Part shown: positions 333 to 25,885 of the stretch, one piece after another | How positions within the stretch are numbered: the first letter of the stretch is position 1 | Layout of the letters: each line of letters starts with the position of its first letter | Source of the DNA: an uncultured Lentisphaerota bacterium | GTDB taxonomy: Bacteria > Verrucomicrobiota > Kiritimatiellia > RFP12 > UBA1067 | Assembly (NCBI GenBank): GCA_900320225.1 | Contig: ONRL01000051.1 | Location: 1-46,451, forward strand | Direction: 5' to 3' | DNA: 46,451 nt | Notes under the pieces: model-generated | Told to the model about the DNA's origin: nothing | The model's database searches: none | Seen by the model: the letters and a program-made list of their open reading frames with translations, nothing else | Translations under genes and position numbers: made by a program

Positions 333-1703
333 ATGGACGCATCCCCGATCGCGATCGTCGGCGTGAGTTGCCGGTTCGCCAGCGCGCCGGACCCCGGCGC
401 GTTCTGGCGGATGATCATGCACCGTGCGAGTGGCATCGCGCCGTTCGGCGAGGAGCTGTCGCTCCCGTACGGCGGACGCAACCTCTTCGACGCCCCCTAC
501 CCCACGCACGGCGCGCTGCTCGGTCCGCTCTACGCCTTCGTCCCGCGCGAGCAGGACGTCCCGCGCGAGCTGAGCCTCGGCGAGAACCAGGACCGCTACT
601 TCGCCGTGCAGCTCGCGTTCGACGCGCTTGCGGACGCGGGCATGCGTCCGCACGCCGTCGAGCCCGTGCGCGGCACGGTGCGTTTCGGCTACGCGCCGCC
701 GTTCAACTCGTCCACGATGAACTGGCTGCAGCACACCTTCTTCGTGGACCAGACGATGGAGATCATCGCCCACTTCTTCCGCAACGCGCCGGAGGAGACG
801 CTGCAGGCCGTGCGCGGGGAACTCGTGAATTCGCTTCCCGCGCCGGACCCCGCGAGCTTCCTCTCCGGGTCCGGCAACAGCATCGCGAGCGGCATCGCGC
901 GCGAATGCACGTTTTCCGGCGGGGCCACCACGCTCGACGGCGGCGCGCTTTCCGGCATTGCGGCGATCCGCGCGGCGATGGACGACCTCCGCAGCGGGCG
1001 CGCGGACGTGGCGCTCGCCGGCGCGCTCACGCCGCCGCTGTCGCGGCCTTTCCTCGAAGGCGTTTCCGGCGAGGTGCTGTTCGCGACGGACGGCGACCTC
1101 GTGCCGTTCTCGCGCGACGCGCACGGCACGGTGCCCGGCGAGGGCGGGGCGTTCTTCGTGCTGAAGCGCGAGGGCGACGCCCTCGCGGCGCACGACCGCA
1201 TCTACGCGCTCGTCAAGGGCGTGGCGTGCGGTTCCGCGCCGCTCGCCACGCTTCTCTCCGCGGCGGCGGACCGTGCCGGCGCGCCGCTCACGTCGATCGA
1301 CCTCATCGAGGCGGACGGCAGCGGGATTCCGTCGTACGACGCGGCGGAGGTGGAGGTCGTGCAGTCGCTCTGGGGCGAACACCGCCCCGGCGGACCGCTC
1401 GTGGGGATCGGGTCCGTGAAGGGCAACGTGGGGCACTGCTTCCGCGCGGAGGCCGTGGCGTCGATCCTGAAGGTGGCGCTTGCGCTGCGGCACCGCGTGC
1501 TGCCGCCGCAGATGCCGTGCGCGCATCCGATCGAGGCGCTCTCGAACGTGGGCAGCAGCGTGTATTTGCTGAACGAGGCGCGTCCGTGGGTGACGGGCGA
1601 CTCCACGTCCCCGCGCCGCGCGGCCGTGTTGGTGAACGACGGCGGCGGGCGGCGGGCGGCGCTCGTCCTCGAGGAGGAGCCGGAGAAGGAGGACCGCGCA
1701 TGA
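333..1703 (+). CDS. Ketosynthase-like protein lacking the catalytic Cys and one His (pseudo-KS / chain-length-factor-like)
   Basis: The 456-residue protein has the overall thiolase-fold layout of type I polyketide/fatty-acid ketosynthases. It has an N-terminal IAIVGVSCRFASAPDPGAFW (IAIVGmacrfPGA-like), the LRSGRADVALAGA strand region and a C-terminal GSVKGNVGHC block. The usual active-site motif DTACSSSL reads DGGALSGI (residues 202-209), so the nucleophilic Cys position is Ala205. The EAHGTGT motif reads EADGSGI, replacing the first catalytic His with Asp328. The second His is kept (His368). With no Cys it should not condense; a chain-length-factor, decarboxylating or scaffolding role is inference. 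The start follows a GGAAGGGG ribosome site. The stop overlaps the next start (ATGA), so the two are translationally coupled. No acyl carrier protein or active KS is visible nearby. Confidence 0.85.
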   Translation: MDASPIAIVGVSCRFASAPDPGAFWRMIMHRASGIAPFGEELSLPYGGRNLFDAPYPTHGALLGPLYAFVPREQDVPRELSLGENQDRYFAVQLAFDALADAGMRPHAVEPVRGTVRFGYAPPFNSSTMNWLQHTFFVDQTMEIIAHFFRNAPEETLQAVRGELVNSLPAPDPASFLSGSGNSIASGIARECTFSGGATTLDGGALSGIAAIRAAMDDLRSGRADVALAGALTPPLSRPFLEGVSGEVLFATDGDLVPFSRDAHGTVPGEGGAFFVLKREGDALAAHDRIYALVKGVACGSAPLATLLSAAADRAGAPLTSIDLIEADGSGIPSYDAAEVEVVQSLWGEHRPGGPLVGIGSVKGNVGHCFRAEAVASILKVALALRHRVLPPQMPCAHPIEALSNVGSSVYLLNEARPWVTGDSTSPRRAAVLVNDGGGRRAALVLEEEPEKEDRA

Positions 1704-4700
1704 GCGCCGAACCGGGAGGAGCCGTCGGGAGCGAGCTCGTGCTGCTCGGCGCGTCGGACACGGCGGGTCTGCTGGCGTCCGTCCGCCGACTCAAGCATTT
1801 CGTGGAGCAGGCGCCGGGCGCCAACCTTTCGGACGTGGCGTACACCTGCGCGCGGGACTACCCGGCGACGTGCGGCGCGTCGCTGGCGGTGGTCGTTTCC
1901 TCCATGGCCGGGCTGCGCGCGCGCCTCGTCTCGGCCGAGGCGCGCATCGCCGCCGCCGCGCCGCGCGTGCGCGACAAATCGGGCACCTACTATTTCCGCG
2001 ACCGGATGATCGGCGAGGGGGCGCAGGGACGTCTCGCGTTCGTGTTCCCGGGCGCGCCGTCGTTCTACCCCGGCATGCTGCGCGACCTCTCCGTGCGTTT
2101 CCGCGAATGCCGGATGCCGTTCGACGAGCTGGAGGCCGCGCTGAAGGGCGCGGGCGCGGGCAGGTTCGTGCCGTCGGCGTTCGTGTTCCCGCCCGCGCCG
2201 TACTACCGGCACGACGCGGACGTCTTCACGGCGGGCGGCTACGCCGAGGCGATGGTGTCCACCTACTCGGCCAACGCCGCGCTCTATCGGATGTTCGCGG
2301 CGCTGGGAATCCATCCCGACGGCGTGACCGGCTTCGCGGGCGGCGACTTGAGCGCGCTGGCGGCGGGCGGCCTCTTCGGGAAGTTCGCGCGGAAGGACCG
2401 CCTGGCGTTCCTGCGCGAGATGTACAAGCTCGTGAACACGGCCGTGGACCATGCGGGCCTGCCGCGGTGCGTGATGGTGTCCATCATCTCGCCGCATCCC
2501 GGCCGGGCCGAGGAGATCCTCGCCGGCTTCGCGCCGGAGAAGGTGGCGGTGGCGCTGCACTGCTCGCCGCGCCATCTCACGCTCGCGATCGCGCCGGACG
2601 CGTTTGAGGAGGTGCGGCAGGCGCTCACGGCGGCGGGCGTGCGCGGGATGCGTCTCGCGGTGGACCGTCCGTTCAACACGCCCTGGTGCGAGAAGATCCT
2701 CTCGCAGTTCCGCAAGTTCGCGGGGAACTGGGTGGACGACCGCCCGCGCATCCCGGTCTACTGCTGCGGCACCACGGAGCCGTTGCCGCCCAAGGCGCGC
2801 AAGGCGCGCGACGCGGCGGCCGAGCAGTGGGTGGCGCCGGTGCGCCTGGAGCAGACGGTCCGGCGGATGTACGCGGACGGCTTCCGGGTGTTCCTCGAAT
2901 GCGGTCCGCGCGGCGCGACCGCGGGCGAGATCGACGACATCCTGCGCGGCGAGGACCACGTGGCGGTGGCGGCGGACTCCGTGCACCGCGCCGGCATCCT
3001 GCAGCTCCAGCACGCGGTGGGGCAGCTGGCGGCGCTGGGGGCGTCGGTGGAGCCGATGGCGCTCTTCGTGCACCGGCGCTGCCGCGCGCTCGACTTCGAC
3101 TCGCCGCTCACGCTCGACATCCGCCGCGAGACGGAACAGCGCCTCTCGCGCGAGTTCCCGCGCCTCTCCCTCGAGAAGGCGGGGCCCTCCTTCGGCGGGG
3201 CGATGGTCTCCTCCGCCGCGAGCGTGCCCGGCATGCGTCCGAAGGCCGGCGTGCGCGCGGCGGCGGTGCGTGCGCGTGCGCGTGCGCGGCGCCAGTTCGA
3301 CTTCGGCGCGTTCAACCCGCTCATTTCGGATGCGGACGTGGTGGCAGAGCAGCCCGGCGTGTCGCTCGAGATCCGCAAGACGTTCACTTTCGCGGCGCAG
3401 CCGCTCTTCGCCGACTTCGCGCGCGGCGTGTCGCGCCTTTCCTATTCCGACGACCGCCTGCGCGGCTTCACGCCGCTCGCGCTCGTCGCGGCGGCGGAGA
3501 TCATGGCGGAGCTCGCGCAGATGCTCCTGCCGAGCCGGCGCGTGGCGCGCGTGGAGGATCTCCTCAGCCGCCGCACGGTGGCGTTCCGGGAAAACCGCCT
3601 CACGCTCTACGTGCGCGCCGAGCGCGTGCCGTCCGCCGACCCCGCGGAGGCCGCCGTGAAGGTGCAGGTGCGCGAGGACGGCGCGGACGCCGCCTGGACG
3701 TGGCCCGCGTGCGAGGGCACGTTCGTGCTCGCGGCGGGTCCGGCCGAGCCGGAGGCGTTCACGCCGCCGGAACTCTCCCGCGCCCGCGAAGTGCATTGGG
3801 CGCCGAGCGACATCTACCCCGACCGGCTCTTTTCCGGCGCGCTCCTGCAGGCCATCCAGTCGGCGGACCGCTGGAGCGAGGCCGGGCTCGACTACGAGGT
3901 GGAGGTGCCGTCCGCGGAATCGGCCCTCGCCTTCACGCGCGTGCCGCAGTGGGCGCTCAACCCGCAGTTGCTGGCGGCGGTCACGGACGGCTTCGCGCTC
4001 TGGCGCAGCCACCGCCGGTTCGAGGGCGCGTTCTCGTTCGCGTTCCGCCTGCGGCGCCTCGAACTGCACGCGCCGCCGCCGGCGGAGGGGACGCGCCTCC
4101 ACTGCTATTTGCGCACGACGGGCGTCACGCCGCGGTCGGTGCTGGCGGACATCCAGGTGTCCGACGGCAACGGCACGCGCGTGATGGTGCTGCGCGGCTA
4201 CGAGGAGCTGGCCGAACGCGTGCCGCCGGAGTACCGCGCGCTCCTGCTCGCGCCCGCGCAGACGTTCCTCACGTCGGTCGTGCCGGCGGCGGCGCTCGGC
4301 GCGCCCGCGACGACCGTGGCGAGCGCGATGGTGACGGACGTGCCGTACCCGCTCTTCGAGCGCAACGAGGAGCTGTGGCTCAAGACGGTCTCGCAGATCG
4401 TGCTTAACCACGACGAGCGCCGCGCGTTCGCGGAGATGCCGGGCGCGGTGTCGCGCCGCACGGAGTGGCTGTTCGGGCGCATCGCGGCGAAGGAGGCGGT
4501 GCGGCGGTTCCTCGGCGAGAACTACCAGGCGCGGTGGAGCGACGCGGACGTGCAGATCTGGGCGGACGACAGCGGCAAGCCGTGTCCGATCGGCGAGTGG
4601 GGCGACCGCCTGACGGCGCGCATCGACCTCTCGATCGCGCACACGTCGCGCTTCGTGGTGGCCGTGGTGGCGGCGAACGCGCGCGTGGGCGTGGATGTGG

Positions 4701-5041
4701 AGGCTCTCGGACGCGACCTTTCGGACGAGTTCACGCACGGCGTGTTCACGCCGGAGGAGCTGGAGCTGGCGGTGCGGGCGGTGGACGCGCCGAGCGCGAC
4801 GATCCGCTTCTGGTGCGCGAAGGAGGCGCTCTCCAAGGCGCTCGGCACGGGCATCCGCTACTCGCCGAAGGACCTCGTGGTGGAGTCGTTCCAGGCCGAG
4901 ACGGGGGAGATGGCGCTCTCGCTGCGCAACCAGTGGCTTGAGAATTTCAAGATGTTCACGGGTCGGTCGATCCGGGTTTCGTCGACCGTCGTGAAGGGAC
5001 ACGTCCTCGCGAGTTGCTTCATTCCCGAGAGCATTTTCTAA
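1700..5041 (+). CDS. Multidomain synthase-like protein: degenerate AT, hotdog dehydratase-like region, C-terminal Sfp-type PPTase
   Basis: This 1113-residue protein reads as AT-like (about 95-445), double-hotdog dehydratase-like (about 530-870) and 4'-phosphopantetheinyl transferase (about 900-1113). The acyltransferase GHSLGE motif is GFAGGD (residues 211-216), so the catalytic Ser is Ala213. The FHS motif is FNT (Asn326), removing the His partner. In the dehydratase region the expected Asp-His appears as Asp572-Phe573. By contrast the PPTase motifs look intact: GVDVE at 997-1001 and WCAKEALSKALG from 1038. PPTases load the phosphopantetheine arm on carrier proteins, so this may be the only active domain. 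The coupled upstream gene is a KS-like protein also lacking its nucleophile. The arrangement recalls PUFA-synthase-type multiprotein systems, where KS-like subunits without activity occur, but the carrier and active KS subunits are not in this window. Confidence 0.82.
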   Translation: MSAEPGGAVGSELVLLGASDTAGLLASVRRLKHFVEQAPGANLSDVAYTCARDYPATCGASLAVVVSSMAGLRARLVSAEARIAAAAPRVRDKSGTYYFRDRMIGEGAQGRLAFVFPGAPSFYPGMLRDLSVRFRECRMPFDELEAALKGAGAGRFVPSAFVFPPAPYYRHDADVFTAGGYAEAMVSTYSANAALYRMFAALGIHPDGVTGFAGGDLSALAAGGLFGKFARKDRLAFLREMYKLVNTAVDHAGLPRCVMVSIISPHPGRAEEILAGFAPEKVAVALHCSPRHLTLAIAPDAFEEVRQALTAAGVRGMRLAVDRPFNTPWCEKILSQFRKFAGNWVDDRPRIPVYCCGTTEPLPPKARKARDAAAEQWVAPVRLEQTVRRMYADGFRVFLECGPRGATAGEIDDILRGEDHVAVAADSVHRAGILQLQHAVGQLAALGASVEPMALFVHRRCRALDFDSPLTLDIRRETEQRLSREFPRLSLEKAGPSFGGAMVSSAASVPGMRPKAGVRAAAVRARARARRQFDFGAFNPLISDADVVAEQPGVSLEIRKTFTFAAQPLFADFARGVSRLSYSDDRLRGFTPLALVAAAEIMAELAQMLLPSRRVARVEDLLSRRTVAFRENRLTLYVRAERVPSADPAEAAVKVQVREDGADAAWTWPACEGTFVLAAGPAEPEAFTPPELSRAREVHWAPSDIYPDRLFSGALLQAIQSADRWSEAGLDYEVEVPSAESALAFTRVPQWALNPQLLAAVTDGFALWRSHRRFEGAFSFAFRLRRLELHAPPPAEGTRLHCYLRTTGVTPRSVLADIQVSDGNGTRVMVLRGYEELAERVPPEYRALLLAPAQTFLTSVVPAAALGAPATTVASAMVTDVPYPLFERNEELWLKTVSQIVLNHDERRAFAEMPGAVSRRTEWLFGRIAAKEAVRRFLGENYQARWSDADVQIWADDSGKPCPIGEWGDRLTARIDLSIAHTSRFVVAVVAANARVGVDVEALGRDLSDEFTHGVFTPEELELAVRAVDAPSATIRFWCAKEALSKALGTGIRYSPKDLVVESFQAETGEMALSLRNQWLENFKMFTGRSIRVSSTVVKGHVLASCFIPESIF

Positions 5042-5498: not shown

Positions 5499-5527
5499 TT
5501 GCTTTCCAAAAAAGAATTCGCTATACT
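5499..5527 (+). promoter_or_regulatory. Sigma-70-type promoter of ppdK
   Basis: TTGCTT (5499-5504) and TATACT (5522-5527) are separated by exactly 17 bases. The predicted start of transcription near 5534 gives a leader of about 50 bases ahead of ppdK. Confidence 0.7.
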
Positions 5528-5582
5528 ATCCGCGAACAGACTAAAAGAAATGATGAATAACAAGCAAGAAGGAAAGAAACAA

Positions 5583-8225
5583 ATGGCAAACAAGACGAAG
5601 TACGTGTACTTCTTCGGCGCGGGCCAGACGGAAGGCAACGCCAACATGCGCGAGCTGCTGGGCGGCAAGGGCGCGAACCTCGCGGAGATGGCGGGTCTCG
5701 GACTCCCGGTGCCGCAGGGCTTCACGATCACCACCGAGGCCTGCACGCGCTACTACGACGACGGACGCATGATCGCGGACGACATCATGAACCAGGTGCT
5801 CGAGTACGTCGGCAAGCTCGAGAAGTCCGCCGGCAAGAAGTTCGGCGACGCCAAGAACCCCCTGCTCGTCTCCGTGCGCTCCGGCGCCCGCGCGTCCATG
5901 CCGGGCATGATGGACACGATCCTCAACCTCGGCCTCAACGAGACCGTCGTCAATTCGCTCGCGAAGCAGACGAAGAACCCGCGCTGGGCGTGGGACTGCT
6001 ACCGCCGCTTCATCCAGATGTTCTCCGACGTCGTGATGGAGGTCGGCAAGAAGCACTTCGAGAAGCTCATCGACGAGATGAAGGCGAAGAAGGGCGTGAA
6101 GCAGGACCTCGAACTCACGGCGGCGGACCTCAAGGCGCTCGCCGGCAAGTTCAAGGCCGAGTACAAGAGCGCGATCGGCAAGGAATTCCCCGACGATCCG
6201 AAGGAACAGCTCGTCGCGGCCATCAAGGCCGTGTTCCGCAGCTGGGACAACCCGCGCGCGAACGTCTACCGCCGCGACAACGACATCCCCTACAGCTGGG
6301 GCACCGCCGTGAACGTGCAGATGATGGCGTTCGGCAACCTCAACAACCAGTCCGGCACGGGCGTCGCCTTCACGCGCGACCCGGCGAGCGGCGAGAAGAA
6401 GCTCATGGGCGAGTTCCTCATGAACGCCCAGGGCGAGGACGTCGTGGCCGGCGTCCGCACGCCGATGCCGATCGCGAAGATGGCCGAGGTGATGCCCGAG
6501 GCGTTCAAGCAGTTCCAGAAGATCTGCGCGACGCTCGAGAAGCACTACCGCGACATGCAGGACATGGAGTTCACGATCGAGAACAAGAAGCTCTACATGC
6601 TCCAGACCCGCAACGGCAAGCGCACGGCGCGCGCCGCGCTGAAGATCGCCTGCGACCTCGTGGACGAGGGCATGCGCACCGAGGAGGAGGCCGTCCTCAT
6701 GATCGACCCCCGCAACCTCGACACGCTCCTCCACCCGCAGTTCGACGCCGTGGCGCTCAAGCGCGCCAAGCCCGTCGGGCGCGGCCTCCCGGCCTCGCCG
6801 GGCGCCGCGTGCGGCCGCATCGTGTTCACGGCCGCGGACGCGAAGGAGTGGAAGGGCCGCGGCGAGAAGGTCGTCTTGGTGCGCCTCGAGACCTCCCCCG
6901 AGGACATCGAGGGCATGAAGGCCGCGGAGGGCATCCTCACGGTGCGCGGCGGCATGACGAGCCACGCGGCCGTCGTCGCCCGCGGCATGGGCGAGTGCTG
7001 CGTCTCCGGCTGCCAGGAAATCGCGATGGACGAGGAGCACAAGAAGTTCACGCTCGCCGGCAAGGTGTTCAAGGAGGGCGACTGGCTCTCCATCGACGGC
7101 TCCACCGGCAACATCTACGACGGCGTGATCCCCACCGTGGACGCGCAGATCGCCGGCGAGTTCGGTCGCATCATGATGTGGGCCGACAAGTTCCGCAAGC
7201 TGAAGGTGCGCACGAACGCCGACACGCCGCGCGACGCGAAGAAGGCGCGCGAGCTCGGCGCCGAGGGCATCGGCCTCTGCCGCACGGAGCACATGTTCTT
7301 CTCGCAGAGCCGCATCACGCCGTTCCGCGAGATGATCTGCGCCGACACGGTCGAGGAGCGCGAGATCGCCCTCAACAAGATCCTGCCGTTCCAGCAGGAC
7401 GACTTCGAGCAGCTCTTCGAGGCGCTCGACGGCCAGCCCGTCACGATCCGCTTCCTCGACCCGCCGCTCCACGAGTTCGTGCCGCACACGGAGGACGAGA
7501 TCGCCCTCCTCGCGAAGACCACGCACAAGCCGATCAGCCGCATCAAGGAGATCATCGACTCGCTCCACGAGTTCAACCCGATGATGGGCCACCGCGGCTG
7601 CCGCCTCTGCGTGACCTACCCCGAGATCGCGGTGATGCAGACGAAGGCCGTGATCCGCGCGGCGATCAACGTGCAGAAGCGCCACAAGGGCTGGAACGTG
7701 CGCCCGGAGATCATGATCCCGCTCACGAGCGACGTGAAGGAGTTCAAGTTCGTGAAGGACATCGTCGTCCACGTGGCGAACGAGGAGATCCAGTCCGCCG
7801 AAATCAAGCTCAACTACGAGGTGGGCACGATGATCGAGGTGCCGCGCGCGGCGCTCGTCGCGGGCGAGCTCGCGGAGGAGGCGGAGTTCTTCTGCTTCGG
7901 CACGAACGACCTCACGCAGATGACCTTCGGCTTCTCGCGCGACGACGCGGGCAAGTTCCTCGGCTCGTACTACGACAACAAGATCTACGAGAACGACCCG
8001 TTCGCCCGCCTCGACCAGACCGGCGTGGGCAAGCTGATGAAGATGGCCGTCACCGACGGCAAGGCCACCCGCCCGAAGATCCACTGCGGCATCTGCGGCG
8101 AGCACGGCGGCGACCCGTCCTCGGTCGAGTTCTGCCACCGCATCGGCCTGAACTACGTCAGCTGCTCGCCGTTCCGCGTGCCGATCGCTCGCCTTGCGGC
8201 GGCGCAGGCCGCCCTGCGCAAGTAG
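5583..8225 (+). CDS. ppdK: Pyruvate, phosphate dikinase
   Basis: The 880-residue length matches bacterial PPDK, which interconverts pyruvate + ATP + Pi with phosphoenolpyruvate + AMP + PPi in the cytosol. The N-terminal ATP-grasp domain begins at GGKGANLAEMAGLGLPVPQG. The swivelling phosphohistidine domain has GGMTSHAAVVARGMGECC with catalytic His461. The C-terminal PEP/pyruvate barrel ends with CGICGEHGGDP and catalytic Cys838. I chose the ATG at 5583 because GGAAAG lies at the right distance and MANKTKYVYFF matches family N-termini; in-frame ATGs at 5550 and 5553 would add residues without a good ribosome site. It has its own promoter. PPDK here suggests a PPi-linked or reversible glycolytic step, as in many anaerobes (inference). 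Confidence 0.97.
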   Translation: MANKTKYVYFFGAGQTEGNANMRELLGGKGANLAEMAGLGLPVPQGFTITTEACTRYYDDGRMIADDIMNQVLEYVGKLEKSAGKKFGDAKNPLLVSVRSGARASMPGMMDTILNLGLNETVVNSLAKQTKNPRWAWDCYRRFIQMFSDVVMEVGKKHFEKLIDEMKAKKGVKQDLELTAADLKALAGKFKAEYKSAIGKEFPDDPKEQLVAAIKAVFRSWDNPRANVYRRDNDIPYSWGTAVNVQMMAFGNLNNQSGTGVAFTRDPASGEKKLMGEFLMNAQGEDVVAGVRTPMPIAKMAEVMPEAFKQFQKICATLEKHYRDMQDMEFTIENKKLYMLQTRNGKRTARAALKIACDLVDEGMRTEEEAVLMIDPRNLDTLLHPQFDAVALKRAKPVGRGLPASPGAACGRIVFTAADAKEWKGRGEKVVLVRLETSPEDIEGMKAAEGILTVRGGMTSHAAVVARGMGECCVSGCQEIAMDEEHKKFTLAGKVFKEGDWLSIDGSTGNIYDGVIPTVDAQIAGEFGRIMMWADKFRKLKVRTNADTPRDAKKARELGAEGIGLCRTEHMFFSQSRITPFREMICADTVEEREIALNKILPFQQDDFEQLFEALDGQPVTIRFLDPPLHEFVPHTEDEIALLAKTTHKPISRIKEIIDSLHEFNPMMGHRGCRLCVTYPEIAVMQTKAVIRAAINVQKRHKGWNVRPEIMIPLTSDVKEFKFVKDIVVHVANEEIQSAEIKLNYEVGTMIEVPRAALVAGELAEEAEFFCFGTNDLTQMTFGFSRDDAGKFLGSYYDNKIYENDPFARLDQTGVGKLMKMAVTDGKATRPKIHCGICGEHGGDPSSVEFCHRIGLNYVSCSPFRVPIARLAAAQAALRK

Positions 8226-24916: not shown

Positions 24917-25885
24917 ATGGTGGCCGTGAACACTGCAACAGAATTTCTCTGGGGGACGCCCGACGAGGTGGGTGCCCGCATGCGGCCCGACGTGCCGTCG
25001 TTCCGTCTCGTGAACCCGGCAGGGGATCTGCCTCCGGCCATGCGCGAGTTCGTTGTCACGCCGATGCCATCCGCGCCGGTCGAGCTGAAGCTCGACCCTC
25101 CCGCGAAGCCGCTTGTGCGCAACGGGCGCACCGTAGGATGCGTTTGGGAGGATTCCCGCGCCGTCTACTGCTCCCTCGCCGGCGTGCTGCCGCCGGATCT
25201 CGCCGCGCCGCGCGGCGCGCAGGCGGCGGCCATCTTTCCCGAGATGGAAGCGCTGCTGGCCGAGGCGGGCATGACGTTCGCGCACGTGGTGCGCACCTGG
25301 CTCTACATCGACCGCGTGTGCGAGTGGTACGGCGAGTTCAACGCGGCGCGCTCCGCGTTCTTCGAGTCGCGCAACGTGTTCAACACCTTCCTGCCCGCGT
25401 CTACGGGCATCGGCAGCGCGAATCTCGACGGTGCGGCGATCACGGCCGGCGCGATCGCGATGAAGCCGAAGGACGCGTCCGTGCGCGCGGAGATCGTGGA
25501 GTCGCCCCTGCAGGCGCCGGCGATGGCGTATCGCTCGAGCTTCAGCCGCGCGGCGGAGATCCTCTGGCCGGAGCGGCGTCTTCTCTTCGTGAGCGGCACG
25601 GCGTCGATCCAGCCCAACAGCCACGACGTGGCCTTCGTGGGCGACATCGAGAAGCAGGTGGACTGCACGATGAAGGCCGTGTACGCGATTCTCGAGAGCC
25701 GCGGCTACGGCTGGAAGGACGTTTCGCGCGCGATCGTGTATTTGAAGGAGCCGTCGTTCCGCGCGGCGTGGCAGGCGTGGCTGGCCGCGCGCGGGCTGCC
25801 GGGCGACTTCGCCGCCGAGACGGTCTGCGACGTCTGCCGCGACGAATGGCTCTTCGAGATCGAGCTGGACGCGGAGCGCACGTAA
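24917..25885 (+). CDS. Rid-fold chorismatase-like protein (FkbO/Hyg5/XanB2 type)
   Basis: The 322-residue protein has the tandem Rid (YjgF)-like layout of chorismatases. These cleave chorismate to dihydroxycyclohexadienoate or hydroxybenzoates plus pyruvate, giving starter units for secondary metabolites. Supporting stretches are VRTWLYIDRVCEWYGEFNAA, NTFLPASTGIGSANLDGAAI and, in the second half, LLFVSGTASIQPNSHDVAFV followed by GDIEKQVDCTMKAVYAILES. The order and spacing fit that family better than a single-domain RidA deaminase, but by eye I cannot assign the product type. The start ATG lacks a strong ribosome site and the gene is only 60 bases after the giant gene. The next small ORF starts nine bases after its stop. 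A link to the synthase-like genes or the acyl-CoA ligase in this window is speculation. Confidence 0.65.
   Translation: MVAVNTATEFLWGTPDEVGARMRPDVPSFRLVNPAGDLPPAMREFVVTPMPSAPVELKLDPPAKPLVRNGRTVGCVWEDSRAVYCSLAGVLPPDLAAPRGAQAAAIFPEMEALLAEAGMTFAHVVRTWLYIDRVCEWYGEFNAARSAFFESRNVFNTFLPASTGIGSANLDGAAITAGAIAMKPKDASVRAEIVESPLQAPAMAYRSSFSRAAEILWPERRLLFVSGTASIQPNSHDVAFVGDIEKQVDCTMKAVYAILESRGYGWKDVSRAIVYLKEPSFRAAWQAWLAARGLPGDFAAETVCDVCRDEWLFEIELDAERT

Follow-up and report, generated by a model that had tools for sequence, protein, structure and literature searches.

The window, i.e. the whole stretch of 46,451 nucleotides that was analysed, is an entire contig of a 5.2 Mb genome (95% complete); its named relatives are MAGs from rumen and gut that bear the labels Kiritimatiellae, Lentisphaerae or Verrucomicrobia. 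It contains a pair of plus-strand ORFs, 333-1703 (456 aa) and 1700-5041 (1113 aa), which overlap by the four bases ATGA. The first encodes a PfaC-KS-like ketosynthase (KS) homologue, the second a protein with an AT-like domain, a dehydratase (DH)-like region and a PPTase domain; all features of the pair given below lie on the plus strand. In Pfam searches the pair matches the N- and C-terminal ketoacyl-synt models with 92 and 72 bits and ACPS (PF01648) with 58.5 bits. The Acyl_transf_1 match, at 32.7 bits, lies exactly at the cut-off, and the PS-DH match is weak.

A scan of genome contigs yielded ~73 loci of the pair's family, and the addition of members from further genomes gave 119 KS and 94 AT rows. 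Catalytic columns were set by alignment of these rows, outgroup and catalytically intact proteins included. The KS-like protein lacks the nucleophile: Ala205 (945-947) occupies the column in which intact outgroup KSs possess Cys (DGGALSG vs DAACASS in intact homologues), and Asp328 (1314-1316) that of the first His (EADGSG vs EAHGTG). The second His, His368 (1434-1436), is kept, as in 66 of 68 cases in the first family set, and so is Lys363. The AT-like domain (aa 109-460, 2024-3079) carries Ala213 (2336-2338) at the position of the Ser (GFAGGD vs GHSSGE) and Asn326 (2675-2677) at that of the His (RPFNTP vs RPYHTP). The DH-like double hot-dog region (aa 546-870, 3335-4309) has its weak PS-DH match at residues 713-835, and is also backed by the strand/helix pattern of the model and by homology to the PS-DH domains of intact outgroup proteins. 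Phe573 (3416-3418) stands at the position of the DH His (FADF vs LLDH in intact homologues) and Ala759 (3974-3976) at that of the DH Asp (LLAAV vs LLDAM/LLDTV). The sequence-only reading of this locus had listed the exchanges of KS Cys and first His, those of AT Ser and His, and an Asp-Phe (572-573) in place of the dehydratase Asp-His. All of them fall into the true catalytic columns, none being explained by catalytic residues at shifted positions, and the loss of the DH Asp is a further one that this reading did not include.

Both proteins of the pair are predicted to be well folded. The AlphaFold2 model of the KS-like protein (pLDDT 90.1, pTM 0.90) retains an intact fold and matches GfsA KSQ and other PKS ketosynthases with Z ~50 and an rmsd of ~2.1 Å over ~390 residues. 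In the AT-DH-PPTase model (pLDDT 84.8), the AT-like domain reaches Z values of up to 38 against PKS KS-AT and AT structures, and its fold matches include the enediyne AT 4amo. The structural comparison hardly probed the DH and PPTase parts, for which the evidence consists of sequence and predicted secondary structure.

By sequence, the pair is a PPTase. Its Sfp-type domain (aa 873-1113, 4316-5038; PF01648, 58.5 bits) is built from two pseudo-repeats, i.e. two AcpS-like halves, both of which are matched by TIGR00556 (4394-4672 and 4676-5017), and it possesses the GVDVE and WxxKEAxxK motifs of this type. GVDVE (G997-E1001, 4688-4702) contains the Mg/CoA site residues D999 and E1001, both invariant in a 41-row alignment (A1), and WCAKEALSKALG (W1038-G1049, with E1042 and K1046; 4811-4846) likewise has invariant positions in A1. 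Both motifs had been read as retained and are intact. Motifs of secondary-lipid PPTases are also present: under the P1a, P1b and P1b' definitions of Shulse and Allen 2011 (PMC3098273), SGKP (aa 958-961) fits P1a, x(G/D)xP, and LSIAH (aa 977-981) matches hShxH, which is how P1b' reads in Types M-T.

The neighbourhood of ~80 pair loci contains no recurring FAS or PKS gene and no biosynthetic neighbours. Just two gene types recur, neither of them FAS nor PKS: a radical-SAM gene, at 19 of the ~80 loci, and what appears to be an N-acetylglucosamine-6-phosphate deacetylase gene, at 14. A conserved neighbourhood was rejected as a pointer to a pathway. The radical-SAM neighbour carries CxxxCxxC (e.g. 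at loci L166, L170, L172 and L174), apparently lies directly 3' of the AT-DH-PPTase gene in several loci and is, judged by eye, presumably KamA/EpmB-like. In the window, the contig edge truncates a glutamate-5-semialdehyde dehydrogenase-like gene, of which the C-terminal part remains at 1-318; inspected by eye, we take it to be proA, and it adjoins the pair in only a few relatives. Downstream of the pair follows a pyruvate phosphate dikinase gene (5505-8222), not conserved there in other loci. The window further contains a single 2578-aa ORF with a glycine-rich domain (PF21722; 17120-24856), probably a large surface protein, a gene whose product has an FkbO/Hyg5-like chorismatase domain at its N-terminus and an L-PSP/RidA-like domain at its C-terminus (24917-25885), and an RHS-repeat protein gene close to the contig end (43018-45036).

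Genomes compared with that of the window are MAGs, mostly 80-100% complete, and absences from them are statistical; the family codes f1-f49 are labels of the genome search tool, f1 being the family of the window. Full-length homologues of the pair are found throughout one whole order, and dozens of species have the ORFs at full length. Among close relatives, the Nei-Gojobori dN/dS is lowest for the PPTase (~0.045) and the KS (~0.05), followed by the DH (~0.07) and the AT (~0.12); the ratio is higher against more distant relatives, but dS there is near saturation. These comparisons show purifying selection on all domains of the pair. The catalytic residues of the three synthase domains vary nonetheless. 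Across the order, the KS nucleophile site is occupied by A, M, L, V, I, N, S, T, G, E or D, and the position of the first His usually by Asp; around this dead site, Asp202, Gly204 and the second His are near-fixed in f1, and the Lys is conserved, too. The DH His is absent from every order member examined and kept in the outgroups. The AT His is kept in f3, f5 and f6 and reads Asn (rarely Asp) in f1 and f2, f3, f5 and some f1 members retain the AT Ser, and the KS Cys is present in G220 (f6), G242 (f3) and G171 (f1). Some side activity is possible in members keeping KS Cys or AT Ser. Active sites were thus lost repeatedly, separately and differently by lineage. No exchange of PPTase residues D999, E1001 or E1042 occurs in any member with the domain.

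In seven genomes (G156, G222, G231, G236, G245, G254 and G274) the KS-like gene is kept though unlinked from the PPTase gene. It was undetected in five f1 genomes with a PPTase gene (G253, G278, G238, G264 and G275), which, at 80-90% completeness, is about what incompleteness could explain. The simple gene caller applied to unlinked and outgroup loci puts some genes on the wrong strand, and only matches to the two query proteins were used there.

The genome of the window has exactly one PF01648 match, located in the AT-DH-PPTase gene. The search of the order found such a match in 57 of 58 f1 genomes, 55 of which (of 57) have exactly one, always in the AT-DH-PPTase gene; G098 deviates, as does G208 with a match below the cut-off. 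In 53 of these 57 genomes the PPTase-bearing ORF is 1080 aa or longer, and the remaining four ORFs, of 456-769 aa, are cut by a contig end or carry an apparent frameshift. Families f2, f3, f5 and f6 present the same single-PPTase pattern, G214 and G203 alone having additional PPTases; both G098 and G214 also carry separate PKSs. A search of nine genomes for a second PPTase with a different model, TIGR00556, and E values of up to 10 found none beyond the AT-DH-PPTase locus. The only family of the order without the pair, f4, does not have the KS-like gene and possesses a stand-alone PPTase, mostly in ORFs of ~280-390 aa. These f4 PPTases (L148-L154) form a long, isolated and loosely placed branch in the PPTase tree; the tree does not join them with the fused PPTases, and they were rejected as a stripped end-state of the fused gene.

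Carrier-protein inventories indicate what the fused PPTase may act on. G139 (92% complete) has one carrier protein and two KSs, namely FabF and the KS-like protein of the pair, and G222 (93% complete) has the same set plus one borderline second ACP match. Inventories so close to a single ACP imply that AcpP should be a client of the fused PPTase, and the gene, serving AcpP by exclusion, would be essential. We infer this, as well as the PPTase activity itself, from motifs and by exclusion. The genome of the window also carries tandem carrier proteins and, besides FabF, two further KSs with intact Cys. These tandem ACPs and the two KSs (L182 = G000:C225:7600-8200, L002, L004) resemble an aryl-polyene-type cluster, and the tandem ACPs are possibly further clients of the sole PPTase. 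Phosphopantetheinylation as the real chemistry of the pair, proposed from the window alone, is well supported by a PPTase site that is kept order-wide and by the finding of no other PPTase in the genome.

Five outgroup families of the same class (f17, f27, f30, f37 and f49) carry homologous KS and AT-DH(-PPTase) genes. Their KS triad is intact in all five families (DAACASS, EAHGTG or EAHATG), and so are AT (GHSSGE, YHTP) and DH (LLDH, LLDT) wherever the domain is present. In G059 the KS is located directly behind a PfaA-like KS-AT-ACP-KR gene, and in G027 the KS and a fully intact AT-DH-PPTase gene lie ~6 kb from an NMO-KS-AT-ACP-KR gene. Such outgroup partner genes score 1065 and 1121 bits with TIGR02813, the NCBI PfaA model, the cut-off of which is 1010 bits. 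In the KS tree all order members form one clade (SH-aLRT 99) nested among intact KSs, and each family groups together as expected under vertical descent. The fused PPTases form one group in the PPTase tree (support 91) with the intact synthases of G027 and G179 inside, and therefore fusion preceded decay; G027 also retains a separate PPTase. The pair and the KS and AT-DH subunits of catalytically intact synthases thus have a common origin, which, with the PfaA-like partners of some outgroup homologues, marks the pair as a remnant of an ancestral PUFA-type (secondary lipid) synthase, namely its PfaC/PfaB-like half. A comparison of homologous pairs in related genomes had been suggested from the window alone; it reveals losses that are common across the order of the window, and an ACP and active KS that co-occur in some of the outgroups.

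We consider it probable (roughly 0.8) that the pair serves as an essential holo-ACP synthase, carried by what is left of a dead megasynthase, i.e. by one half of an ancestral PUFA-type synthase. The PPTase would already have been fused to the AT-DH subunit while the ancestral synthase was still functional, and, in the ancestor of the order to which the window belongs, would have become the only PPTase of the cell. Loss of the PfaA partner (KS-AT-ACP-KR) would have come next; with phosphopantetheinylation as the sole activity still required, the active sites of KS, AT and DH would have eroded. This order of events is our reconstruction. The present enzyme would move 4'-phosphopantetheine from CoA onto AcpP and other carrier proteins, and the dead KS, AT and DH folds would persist as a structural and carrier-protein-docking scaffold, probably a complex of both proteins of the pair. 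A role in scaffolding, dimerisation or carrier docking is the simplest reading of the dead domains.

Constraint on the dead domains is strong, that on the KS equalling that on the PPTase, and exceeds what mere linker duty would predict. A tentative extension would keep the sole essential holo-ACP synthase and let its dead folds dock or sense (acyl-)ACP, coupling AcpP activation to the state of fatty-acid synthesis. In a related alternative, which we regard as conceivable and clearly less probable than the scaffold reading, the pair is a regulatory partner of FAS II: dead folds would bind acyl-ACP, FabF or FabD and tune the PPTase or fatty-acid synthesis, and selection would keep this binding function, not only the PPTase. 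The low KS dN/dS agrees with it, as do the retention of the KS-like gene when unlinked from the PPTase gene, the DxG motif, second His and Lys conserved around the dead KS site, and the smallest inventories, which contain FabF and AcpP only. However, the interaction itself is purely conjectural, linkage to FAS genes is not conserved, and the residue at the dead site is very variable, which speaks against a specific ligand at that point.

Resemblance of the nucleophile-less KS fold to chain-length factors (CLFs), the PfaA-like partners of the outgroups, and the two further KSs and aryl-polyene-type tandem ACPs in the genome of the window would all suit a CLF-like non-catalytic half of a split synthase, still active via partners encoded elsewhere. 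Searches of this genome with PF00109, PF00550 and PF00698 revealed no PfaA-type KS-MAT-ACP-KR protein, and none was found in the rest of the order, where just separate PKSs occur in G098 and G214; an active PfaA partner elsewhere in the genome was rejected. Moreover, in G139 and G222, which both retain the pair, FabF is the only other KS; AT and DH are dead as well, and biosynthetic neighbours are missing. The idea of a split-synthase half with active partners, put forward in the sequence-only reading, accordingly holds for the ancestry of the pair, given the intact PfaA-type partners in outgroup families, and is unlikely for the present. Altered chemistry, e.g. Cys-free decarboxylation as in KSQ domains, is more improbable still: KSQ domains are among the best fold matches and the second His is kept, but the nucleophile site is never Gln, Asp mostly replaces the first His, and neither an ACP nor KR machinery lies alongside. 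A pseudogenised locus in decay, which the absence of catalytic residues from three domains might suggest, is hardly credible in view of full-length ORFs in dozens of species, dN/dS of 0.04-0.12 in all domains among close relatives, well-folded models and intact PPTase motifs; dN/dS and conservation rule it out. Intact homologues occur only in other orders, and within the order of the window the members share the loss, which is old, and the genes are under purifying selection.

If the pair is a holo-ACP synthase inside a dead megasynthase, its living relatives would document how a secondary-metabolism megasynthase lost its product yet became indispensable via a captured housekeeping activity, in a lineage without a separate AcpS or Sfp enzyme. 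They would also provide a natural test of KS, AT and DH folds freed of catalysis, e.g. as carrier-protein docking surfaces. For annotation there is a risk that the genes of the pair are annotated as polyketide synthases and wrongly counted as biosynthetic clusters, and that AcpS is recorded as missing in these genomes.

A literature search of incomplete coverage returned no paper on a synthase reduced to its PPTase, nor on PPTases of Kiritimatiellae. Several known systems share single features with the pair. Chain-length factors and KSQ domains have the ketosynthase fold without the Cys nucleophile, but unlike a chain-length factor the pair is not adjoined by an active KS in the window or in relatives, and unlike a KSQ decarboxylase it has no Gln at the nucleophile position. 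PUFA and other secondary lipid synthases (pfaABCDE) share the KS, AT and DH folds of the PfaC/PfaB-like half and a cluster-associated PPTase, which is normally separate, Pseudoalteromonas DS-12 being one precedent with the PPTase inside pfaC (PMC3098273). In contrast to these synthases, the pair occurs without PfaA, its KS, AT and DH are all dead, and no PPTase besides its own was found in the cell; lacking the catalytic KS (C-H-H), AT (S-H) and DH (H-D) residues, it is no longer a Pfa synthase by the defining features. Enediyne PKSs likewise have the PPTase domain in one polypeptide with AT and DH (PMC3107222). These enzymes (CalE8/SgcE; KS-AT-ACP-KR-DH-PPTase) are catalytically complete and act on their own ACP, whereas the pair is without ACP and KR and has only the PPTase site intact. 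In Pseudomonas aeruginosa, PcpS is the sole known PPTase. It modifies AcpPs (PMC5686131). The pair would resemble it as one broad Sfp-type PPTase serving primary metabolism, but a PcpS-type PPTase is a free enzyme of ~230 aa, whereas that of the pair forms the C-terminus of a dead synthase subunit.
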